Source: Thermodesulfobacteriota bacterium
Lineage (GTDB): Bacteria > Desulfobacterota > GWC2-55-46
DNA length: 64,000 nucleotides
Direction: 5' to 3'
Assembly: GCA_030583865.1 (NCBI GenBank)
Contig: CP129479.1
Span: 508,744-572,743, forward strand
How positions within the stretch are numbered: the first letter of the stretch is position 1; each line of letters opens with the position of its first letter. Below the pieces are notes generated by a model. That model had not been told where the DNA came from. It did not search any database and saw only the letters and a list, made by a program, of their open reading frames with translations. Positions 9,857-63,570 of the stretch are shown here, in pieces. The translations under genes and the position numbers were made by a program.

Positions 9857-10047
9857 GGCAACCTCTAGCGGGCTGCTGAAAAAGTCGTTCTCCGTCGAAG
9901 GCTATGTCGCTGGCTACGAAGGCGTACACTAAAAGTGCGCCTCATTCCTCGCTCGCCTATTCCAACGGGGCCTCGCATCTGGAGCTTTTTAAGCAGCCTG
10001 AATAAAAACGGAGTTTTTTCAGCAATCTCTAAAAATTAGAGGTTGCC
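9857..10047 (+). repeat. family A element bracketed by family B ends
   Basis: Fills most of the gap between rpsU and acsA. GGCAACCTCTA (9857-9867) and AAAAATTAGAGGTTGCC (10031-10047) are the two termini of a family B repeat. Between them lies a family A element (about 9869-10026) starting GGCTGCTGAAAAAG and ending TTTTTTCAGCA. A copies also occur at 43179 and 51345. The arrangement suggests that A inserted into, or replaced the inside of, a B copy. Confidence 0.8.
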
Positions 10048-12088: not shown

Positions 12089-12137
12089 CGCTGCACCTCC
12101 GAAGGGTTAGGCCCGGTCAAGCCTTCAAAGAAGATAA

Positions 12138-12279
12138 GGCTGCCTCTAAAAATGATTATTTTTCCTGATCTCTGTGTCAGGGCGGAAATAAAAATGCTCA
12201 CATATTCCGATATATGCTGCGCTTTTTATTTCCGCCCTTCCTTGACCTCAGAAAAAATTCCTGATTTTTAGAGGCACCC
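12138..12279 (+). repeat. family B quasi-palindrome, copy B1
   Basis: About 142 bp; ends GGCTGCCTCTAAAAAT and ATTTTTAGAGGCACCC. Nested inner stem GGCGGAAATAAAAA / TTTTTATTTCCGCC around a conserved TGCTCACATATT...ATATATGCTGC loop. Belongs to the TTTCCTGA / TCAGAAA arm subtype. With B2 it fills the acsA-hisS gap. Confidence 0.9.
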
Positions 12280-12368
12280 ATAACTTAACTTAACGCCAAC
12301 CGGGTGTCAAGGGCGCGGGGTTTCACGGCCTTGCATAAAAACGGCGCATGTGTTAAGAAATCTTGATA

Positions 12369-12510
12369 GGCAACCTCTATAAATTGATCTTTTCCCCGGA
12401 CTCTGCGTCAGGGCGTGAATAAAAATGCTCACATATTGTCATATATGCTCCGCTTTTTATTCCCGCCCTTCCTTGATTGCGGGAAAAATCTCTAATTTTT
12501 AGAAGTTGCC
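12369..12510 (+). repeat. family B quasi-palindrome, copy B2
   Basis: 142 bp; ends GGCAACCTCTATAAATTG and AATTTTTAGAAGTTGCC. It has the TTTTCCCCGG / GCGGGAAAAA arm subtype and the same central TGCTCACATATT...ATATATGCTCCGC. It ends 58 bases before hisS. Confidence 0.9.
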
Positions 12511-12568
12511 GATATTCTTAACGCAATCCGGTCCCGTTTAAGCCCAGGGGACATGAAAGGCTTTTTTG

Positions 12569-14088: not shown

Positions 14089-14175
14089 GGTCCCCTCTTT
14101 TCTAAAGAGGGGGTAGGGGAGATTATGAAGTCTTTTATAATCCCCCTTTGTCCCTCTTTAAAAAAGGGGGAAATT
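14089..14175 (+). repeat. family C palindromic repeat, copy C1
   Basis: TCCCCTCTTTTCTAAAGAGG-type hairpin, then GGGGAGATTATGAAG...TTTATAATCCCCC, then CCCTCTTTAAAAAAGGGGG. A near-identical copy in the same orientation lies at 33830, just upstream of rlmD; this one lies just upstream of the secretion ATPase. Confidence 0.85.
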
Positions 14176-19977: not shown

Positions 19978-20120
19978 GGCTACCTCTAAAAATAGTTATT
20001 TTTCCTGATCTCTGTGTCAGGGCTGAAATAAAAAAGCTCACATATTATCATATATGCTGCGCTTTTTATTTCCGCTCTTCGCTTGACCTCAGAAAAAATT
20101 CCTGTTTTTTAGAGGCACCC
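19978..20120 (+). repeat. family B quasi-palindrome, copy B3
   Basis: About 143 bp between dprA and topA; ends GGCTACCTCTAAAAAT and TTTTTTAGAGGCACCC. Same arm subtype as B1 (TTTCCTGA / TCAGAAA). The rest of the 19850-20196 gap has a TATAAT at 19891-19896 but no clear -35. Confidence 0.9.
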
Positions 20121-31064: not shown

Positions 31065-31208
31065 GGGCAGCCTCTAAAAATTGATCTTTTCCCCGGACTC
31101 TGCGTAGTTACGGGAATAAAAGTGCTCACATATTATCATATATGCTCCGCTTTTTATTCCCGGCCTTCCTTGATTGCGGGAAAAATTTCTAATTTTTAGA
31201 GGCTGCCC
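31065..31208 (+). repeat. family B quasi-palindrome, copy B4
   Basis: 144 bp with near-perfect ends GGGCAGCCTCTAAAAATT and AATTTTTAGAGGCTGCCC and inner stem CGGGAATAAAAG / CTTTTTATTCCCGG. It ends 28 bases before metH. It lies at the 5' end of the small minus-strand frame. Confidence 0.92.
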
Positions 31209-33829: not shown

Positions 33830-33917
33830 GGTCCCCCTCTTTCCTAAAGAGGGGGCATGGGAGATTATGAATACATTTATAATCCCCCTAATCCCCCTTT
33901 AGAAAAGGGGGATATTC
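33830..33917 (+). repeat. family C palindromic repeat, copy C2
   Basis: GTCCCCCTCTTTCCTAAAGA hairpin arm, GGGAGATTATGAATAC, TTTATAATCCCCC, AGAAAAGGGGGATATTC. Same orientation and layout as C1 and, like it, placed just upstream of a gene (rlmD). Confidence 0.85.
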
Positions 33918-43178: not shown

Positions 43179-43338
43179 CAGGCTGCTGAAAGTCCATATG
43201 CGTCGAAGGCTACGCCGCTGGCTACGAAGGCGGCGTACACGAAAAGTACGCCTCATTCCTCGCTCCCCTATTCCAACTGGGGCCTCGCATCTGGAGCTGT
43301 TGAGCAGCCTGAATAAAAACGGAGTTTTTCAGCAAGCT
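43179..43338 (+). repeat. family A repeat, copy A2
   Basis: About 160 bp from CAGGCTGCTGAAAGTC to GTTTTTCAGCAAG, containing GTCGAAGGCTACG, CTCATTCCTCGCTCCCCTAT and GAGCAGCCTGAATAAAAACG, all shared with A1. Its right end abuts the stop codon of the next minus-strand gene. Confidence 0.88.
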
Positions 43339-51344: not shown

Positions 51345-51499
51345 CAGGCTGCTGAAAAAAACCAATCTGCTGCGTCGTCTTCAAAGTTCGTCATTGCGGC
51401 GTACCGAAAAAGTGCGCCTCATTCCTCACTTTTCGACTCCTTGCATCTAGAGAGCTTTTTGAGCAGCCTTCATGTGATTTTGAGTTTTTCAGCAACCCT
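51345..51499 (+). repeat. family A repeat, copy A3
   Basis: CAGGCTGCTGAAAAAAACC to GAGTTTTTCAGCAACC with internal GTGCGCCTCATTCCTCAC and GAGCAGCCTTCATG. More diverged than A1 and A2, and followed at once by family B copy B5. Confidence 0.85.
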
Positions 51500-51504
51500 G
51501 TTAA

Positions 51505-51634
51505 GGCAACCACTAAAAAAATGATCTTTTCCCCAGACTCCTGTGTCAGGCCGGGACAAAAATGCTCACGTATTATCATATATGCTTATTCACGGCCTTC
51601 CTTGACTGGAAAAATCTCCAATTTTAGAGAAACG
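51505..51634 (+). repeat. family B quasi-palindrome, copy B5
   Basis: GGCAACCACTAAAAAAATG to AATTTTAGAGAAACGG, with CCCCAGACTC and the central TGCTCACGTATTATCATATA. The right end is degenerate and the inner stem is shortened, so this copy appears decayed. It lies 5 bases after A3. Confidence 0.8.
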
Positions 51635-51640
51635 GTCAGA

Positions 51641-51770
51641 AACCCCCGGCCTTTCAAGGCCGGGGATGAATGGCCGCCCGTAGCGAAGCCAGCGTAAGCT
51701 GGCGTAGCGGAGGCAATATCGCCTCACGGGTTCCCGATACCCCGGCCTTCAGGCCGGGGAGCGGTTCATA
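51641..51770 (+). mobile_element. orphan IS200/IS605-like end with omega-RNA-like scaffold, no transposase
   Basis: Hairpin CCCCGGCC-TTTCAA-GGCCGGGG (about 51644-51666) is followed by GGATGAATGG. The region 51670-51735 has GCGAAGCCAGCGTAAGCTGG, GTAGCGGAGGC and CACGGGTTCCCGATA. A second hairpin CCCCGGCCTTCAGGCCGGGG (51740-51759) leads into AGCGGTTCAT. These are the features of the 3' end and guide-RNA scaffold downstream of tnpB in IS200/IS605 elements. No tnpA or tnpB frame is present, so it looks like a remnant or a non-autonomous copy. Confidence 0.6.
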
Positions 51771-59698: not shown

Positions 59699-59838
59699 GG
59701 CAACATCTGAAAATTGATCTTTTCCCCGGACTCTGTGTAGGTCACGCTAATTAAATGCTCACATATTTACATTTATGCTCCGCTTTTTATTTCCCCCCTT
59801 CCGGGAAAGGCGGGGATAATTTCTGATTTAGAGGTTGC
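59699..59838 (+). repeat. family B quasi-palindrome, copy B6
   Basis: 140 bp, GGCAACATCTGAAAATTG to TAGAGGTTGC. Arms TTTTCCCCGGACTC / GGGAAAGGCGGGG and centre TGCTCACATATTTACATTTA. The gap from here to the phage-like cassette (59839-60009) holds no supported gene. Confidence 0.87.
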
Positions 59839-63216: not shown

Positions 63217-63570
63217 TGGTGGAGGCGGCGGGAATCGAACCCGCGTCCGGCAACGCTTACCCGGTTCTTCTACATGCTTATCCTGTCAGGGTAAAATCTC
63301 GCTCTCCGGCCCCCTGAAGGCGTACGATCCGGAAAGCCAGCCCGGTTGAGTCTCGCTCCCAGGTCCTTCGGACAGAGCCCCGGAAGCCATCCTGCTAAGT
63401 GTCGTCCCTCAGGCCCCGCAGGAGAAAGCCTGAAAGACGCTGGCCGGCTTAAGCGGCCAGGGCGTAATCGTAGTCGTTGCCGACTGTTTTTGTCTATCTG
63501 ATTTACGAGGAGATAGAGCTCGGCATGCTTCACCCGGATTCAGACCGTCCCGTCGAAGCCAGTCGCCCCC
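63217..63570 (-). ncRNA. ssrA: transfer-messenger RNA
   Basis: On the minus strand: 5' GGGGGCGACTGG..., 3' ...GGGTTCGATTCCCGCCGC-CTCC-ACCA with a 7-bp acceptor (one G-U), T-loop GTTCGATT and encoded CCA. The reading frame GGC-AAC-GAC-TAC-GAT-TAC-GCC-CTG-GCC-GCT-TAA gives the tag (A)GNDYDYALAA. It rescues stalled ribosomes and adds this degradation tag. About 354 bases, standard size, next to smpB. Confidence 0.95.

Follow-up and report, generated by a model that had tools for sequence, protein, structure and literature searches.

A previously undescribed MITE family with fork-linked orientation and a core conserved in place

Copies of a 142-bp repeat in the window

The window is the whole stretch of 64 000 nucleotides analysed here; positions within it are counted from its first letter, and all others are genome positions or locus (L) coordinates. 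We compared the genome of the window (G000) with those of two sister species (G005 and G001), whose flanking DNA is ~90% identical. The features of the window needed below are:

9857..10047, plus strand: remnant of the 142-bp repeat, end repeats only with a family A repeat between them; the G005 ortholog is a full copy
12138..12279, plus strand: full copy of subtype 1, with the target sequence ATAA duplicated (12134-12137 and 12280-12283) and the core at ~12188-12229
12369..12510, plus strand: full copy of subtype 2, with the target sequence GATA duplicated (12365-12368 and 12511-12514) and the core at ~12419-12460
19978..20120, plus strand: full copy of subtype 1, with TTAT as its target duplication; the site is empty in G005
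31065..31208, plus strand: full copy of subtype 2, whose target duplication is inexact (CATG/CATA); missing at the orthologous place in G005
51505..51633, plus strand: decayed copy, gapped by 8 bp to the right of its core; right end fused to a family C repeat
59699..59838, plus strand: decayed full copy, subtype 2; missing at the orthologous place in G001
9872-10026, ~43182-43337 and 51348-51497: family A repeats

The six copies named in a preliminary description of this DNA, those starting at 12138, 12369, 19978, 31065, 51505 and 59699, all lie where it had placed them. What it called a 'split copy' at 9857 is no 142-bp element cut in two: of the element it retains just the end repeats GGCAACCTCTA...CTCTAAAAATTAGAGGTTGCC, with a family A repeat between them. 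As G005 has the complete element at the orthologous site, 9857 is a remnant. At genome site 1832910 the situation is reversed, with a full copy in G000 and just a short end-to-end palindrome in G005, and from these two sites together internal hairpin loss seems to recur. Further end-to-end palindromes that have the ends of the element and lack its core were seen at L115:3576-3602 (27 bp), L117:2917-2962 (46 bp) and L127:2871-2953 (83 bp); these very short palindromes are probably deletion remnants. The window also holds a tmRNA gene (63217-63570, minus strand), its sole Rfam match at gathering score, and, close to gene ends, a CCCCTCTTT...AAAGAGGGG repeat that occurs twice with 81% identity (14092-14169 and 33834-33911).

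In the 2.75-Mb chromosome the core pattern GCTCACATATTNNNATATATGCT gave 118 matches and the reversed control pattern gave none. A profile HMM, applied to stretches fetched around the core matches, recognized at least 113 full-length copies; the copy set thus consists of stretches around core matches, most of them found via the core pattern allowing 2-3 mismatches. The two arm subtypes distinguished previously are real across this set, with 17 copies like those at 12138 and 19978, 89 like those at 12369 and 31065, and 7 mixed. There were 80 and 51 core matches in the two sister species. Most genomes in the family to which the window belongs carry the element, which is sparse across the order; the core was present in only 4 of 297 sampled genomes of the phylum, all four from that same order. 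Public records name Deltaproteobacteria MAGs as relatives, H5_GWC and UBA5799 among them, and collections of phages, plasmids and viral contigs contained no copy.

Terminal repeats, target duplications and empty sites

At ~142 bp, with no gene and many dispersed copies, the element is short, non-coding and dispersed in the manner of a MITE. It also has the terminal inverted repeats of one, 17 bp long (GGCAACCTCTAAAAATT / AATTTTTAGAGGTTGCC), enclosing an interior that is a nested quasi-palindrome. A 4-bp direct repeat flanks 35 of the 113 copies with their ends aligned, compared with 3.0 expected from re-paired flanks, and direct repeats of 2, 3 or ≥5 bp showed no clear excess in the same set. 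The site at 597851 reads ...gatAGTA-element-AGTAgatatt where filled and ...gatAGTAgatatt where empty in a sister species. The same filled and empty pattern was found at 2399678 and 1095161, and clean empty sites occur in two sister species. The preliminary description had named mobility as one option and had proposed a search for target-site duplications; the fixed 4-bp duplication and the empty sites support mobility. By anatomy and behaviour, the element is a MITE-type non-autonomous transposable element.

The accompanying proposal, a transposase whose ends match those of the element, found no counterpart: scans with PF01609, with PF05598 and for paired ends returned none in the genome stretches and loci searched, and no autonomous parent transposon was found in these stretches and loci. 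The longer end-to-end spans, of 216-368 bp, were considered as a parent and rejected, since a transposase gene would not fit into them; a different repeat has inserted into at least one of these spans (L116).

Orientation with the replication fork

Of the 113 copies in the chromosome, 102 read with the replication fork: they are on the plus strand from 28.7 kb to 1.429 Mb and on the minus strand over the rest, with 11 exceptions. As both switch points were picked by a scan, the control was the same two-switch scan on shuffled orientations, which reached a maximum net of 69 in 5000 shuffles against the 91 observed. dnaA lies at 26.7 kb, by the first switch; the other is half a chromosome away, giving arcs of 1.40 and 1.35 Mb. 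GC skew is mostly positive where copies are plus and mostly negative where they are minus. From the switches, dnaA and the skew it follows that the strand of the element as it stands in the window reads in the fork direction.

About two-thirds of the nearby genes (315/474) are on the leading strand, as would suit an orientation that just tracks gene direction, with the element acting in transcripts; ERIC acts in mRNA. However, 17 of the 19 copies between two lagging-strand genes still read with the fork, which refutes gene direction as the source of the orientation. The direction of the element agrees with the left gene in 71/113 cases and with the right gene in 69/113, against 102/113 for the fork, and we regard the transcript explanation as next to negligible. 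Copies also followed the fork between divergent genes (16/17) and between convergent genes (19/21).

The same was seen in the sister species. On G005 contigs the fork-following copies number 17/17 (C20), 11/12 (C17), 5/5 (C8), 4/4 (C19) and 4/5 (C31), C6 being the sole mixed contig (3 and 2), and the GC skew of G005 agrees with the pattern. Mapped onto G000, copies read with the fork in 25/26 cases for G005 and in 27/33 for G001. Three species of a single genus thus show ~80-95% orientation with the fork, whichever way the genes run. In two other genera (G016 and G014) orientation looks mixed, where the GC skew of short stretches is too noisy to assign the leading strand firmly, and these were set aside as additional replicates. 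Fold stability was likewise rejected as a cause of orientation: it is the opposite strand that has the better fold, by ~3 kcal/mol, in almost every copy regardless of its direction, and this advantage is therefore a property of the element and not of its orientation.

The bias could in principle be made by selection, with insertions occurring both ways and anti-fork copies being harmful and lost; the conservation of the core in place (see below) fits this, since resident copies may then matter to the host. However, the bias is already there in copies missing from a relative: 17/20 such copies follow the fork in G000 and, among copies unshared with G000, 15/15 do so in G005 and 18/23 in G001. 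Nor are shared copies more biased than unshared ones, and the wrong-way copies at 447943 and 2290258 are shared and thus old. A bias in recent independent insertions together with old wrong-way copies favours a bias at the time of insertion over later purging, which we consider unlikely.

Paired changes between the arms

The preliminary description had reported compensatory changes in the two arms, had suggested that the fold itself is kept, and had named arm differences without covariation as the finding that would count against this. The excess of compensatory changes is real: among the 113 aligned copies, two-sided changes fill 168 cells (shuffles, 57 ± 6), and the larger subtype taken by itself has 48 such cells (shuffles, 17 ± 4). 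They are nevertheless a minority, there being 754 cells with one-sided changes, so that compensation does not dominate as it would in an RNA family; most two-sided cells sit in ~5 pairs that mainly separate the two subtypes. Among orthologous copies, 80 pairs changed: in 56 of them a change on one side made or broke the pairing, and just 3 showed compensation. The coupling between the arms is therefore real, whilst the stems are not kept after insertion and decay about as fast as the flanking DNA. The fold is thus mostly not maintained: for stems after insertion, arm differences without covariation are largely what was found, with the two-sided excess remaining.

A structured RNA with its fold under selection would account for that excess and for the strong predicted fold, single-strand RNA folds of two copies beating dinucleotide shuffles with z = -6.7 and -8.9. 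Against it stand the predominance of one-sided changes (754 vs 168), the one-sided changes between orthologs and an orientation that ignores transcription. Rfam, searched at gathering and relaxed thresholds, gave no meaningful match to the element, just weak ones at chance level. We judge a selected RNA to be very improbable. Template switching in hairpins creates and mends paired arms (PMC8794818, PMC8604942). The simplest reading is that arm coupling reflects template switching plus inheritance from the founders of the subtypes.

A slowly diverging core

The central 42 bp, AATAAAAATGCTCACATATTNNNATATATGCTCCGCTTTTTA (the NNN was omitted from the comparison), behave differently from the arms. 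Between orthologs, differences were found at 32/773 core positions (4.1%), 261/1930 arm positions (13.5%) and 175/1738 flank positions (~10%); an earlier, overlapping ortholog set gave 2.6%, 10.6% and 9.8%, respectively. An A+T-rich composition was discarded as the cause because the contrast persists at A/T sites only, with 2.7% for the core and 13.3% for the arms over all shared sites. Once inserted, the element changes two to four times more slowly in its core than in its stems. Within it TCA and CTCC, which face each other unpaired, are nearly invariant, and they help to give the palindrome polarity.

Six of the 20 shared sites (186815, 753469, 808105, 612966, 2673835 and 1429269) show far greater differences in the arms than in the flanks, and at several of these the flanks are nearly identical. 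This suggests re-insertion at the same place or conversion between copies, which could also touch the core. Uniformity of the core might accordingly come from gene conversion among >100 copies, the arms differing and the flanks matching at those six sites, or from the way in which copies were found, largely by the core pattern. With the six replaced-looking sites removed, however, the core still differs at 3.5% of positions compared with 8.5% for the arms and 9.9% for the flanks (p = 9e-5 and 2e-6), and at 2.3% compared with 7.8% for the arms when only A/T sites are counted. Conversion should, moreover, take the adjacent arms along too. Core-based finding does inflate core conservation somewhat, but the pattern tolerated 2-3 mismatches in ~20 bases where the neutral expectation is ~1 change per lineage. 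We hold conversion or copy finding to be a possible, if doubtful, source of the uniformity. Candidate readings of the slow core are a binding site for a host factor, a binding site for the transposase, or an effect of conversion.

Comparison with known systems and a proposed mechanism

The 142-bp repeat is a previously undescribed MITE family, ordinary in type and with two unusual features, its fork-linked orientation and a core conserved in place. Like the bacterial MITEs Correia/NEMIS, ERIC and RUP (PMC2229807), it is <200 bp, non-coding and dispersed, with terminal inverted repeats, a target duplication and a long stem-loop. It differs in that most of those have a TA motif at their ends, whereas the element here has a variable, A+T-rich 4-bp duplication and the ends GGCAACCTCT, and in the two features just named. 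YPAL/RU-2 of Yersinia is also a palindromic mobile element (~168 bp), intergenic and with filled and empty sites, but it has internal inverted repeats and duplications that vary between 3 and 26 bp, whereas the element here has terminal repeats and a 4-bp duplication (PMC2229807).

Replication-linked orientation is itself known for other transposable elements (PMC5371812): Tn7 through TnsE and the beta clamp, IS200/IS605 through the lagging-strand template, and several IS families, including some with clamp-binding transposases. Tn7 and the clamp-binding IS carry their own genes, unlike the small non-coding element here (PMC5371812). IS200/IS605 and palindrome-associated elements share with it hairpins and an orientation that follows replication (102/113 copies here; PMC5371812). 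IS200/IS605, however, lack terminal inverted repeats and do not duplicate their target (PMC3119063); the element has both features, and IS200/IS605-type identity is unlikely. REP/REPIN sequences with a RAYT are dispersed intergenic hairpin repeats at ~100 per genome, as is the element, but it differs from them in having a 4-bp duplication and terminal repeats. A RAYT is not supported as the mobilizer: the RAYT-like gene of this genome is flanked by its own GTAGGGTGCG repeats and not by the element.

We think it probable, on the whole, that a MITE is inserted at forks in a preferred orientation by a trans-acting transposase and that its core is kept by selection. A putative transposase supplied in trans would insert the element at or behind replication forks, making a 4-bp staggered cut. 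Fork polarity would determine the end that goes in first; such an effect is reported for other elements, acting through the beta clamp or through the lagging-strand template. Arm coupling would arise when copies are made, or by hairpin template switching, and not by selection for RNA. Less certainly, the core may bind something, resident copies with an intact core being kept by selection. A bolder reading, which we consider decidedly unlikely, treats the core as a polar landmark of the chromosome: a host protein travelling with the fork or encountering it would read the core, which the MITE would have spread to ~100 directional sites and selection would keep. If this were true, a transposable element would supply the chromosome with those sites.

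Replication-linked orientation was already known for some IS and transposons that carry their own enzymes; here the bias is very strong on a non-coding, nearly symmetrical element of 142 bp with >100 copies. Together with the empty sites and target duplications, this provides a clean set of natural insertions from which to learn how the polarity of the fork determines insertion direction. That the core is conserved in place while the remainder of each copy decays neutrally suggests that resident copies may be of use to the host or to a partner element. The paired changes also carry a warning, as covariation among copies of a palindromic mobile element is, alone, no evidence for a functional RNA.

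Neighbouring repeats

Other repeats accompany the element. Family A, an unrelated quasi-palindromic repeat of ~150 bp (GGCTGCTGAAAAAGTC...TTTTTCAGCAAGC), was found at 34 places in the stretches around copies, often inside or beside the 142-bp element, and has the leading orientation in 27 of the 34. A single RAYT-like Y1 transposase gene at genome positions 1702622-1702987 (L221) is flanked by GTAGGGTGCGC...GCGCACC repeats. This gene and its repeats are a probable REP system of their own, and similar proteins occur in several relatives. Family C (CGGTCAGAAACCCCCGGCCTTTCAAGGCCGGGGATGAATGGCCGCCCG), which we take to resemble IS200/IS605 ends, lies at 51628-51707 of the window and at genome positions 344523, 602083, 672063, 907777 and 1025218; at several places it is fused exactly to the right end of the element, and its seven matches (7/7) all have the same orientation with respect to the fork.
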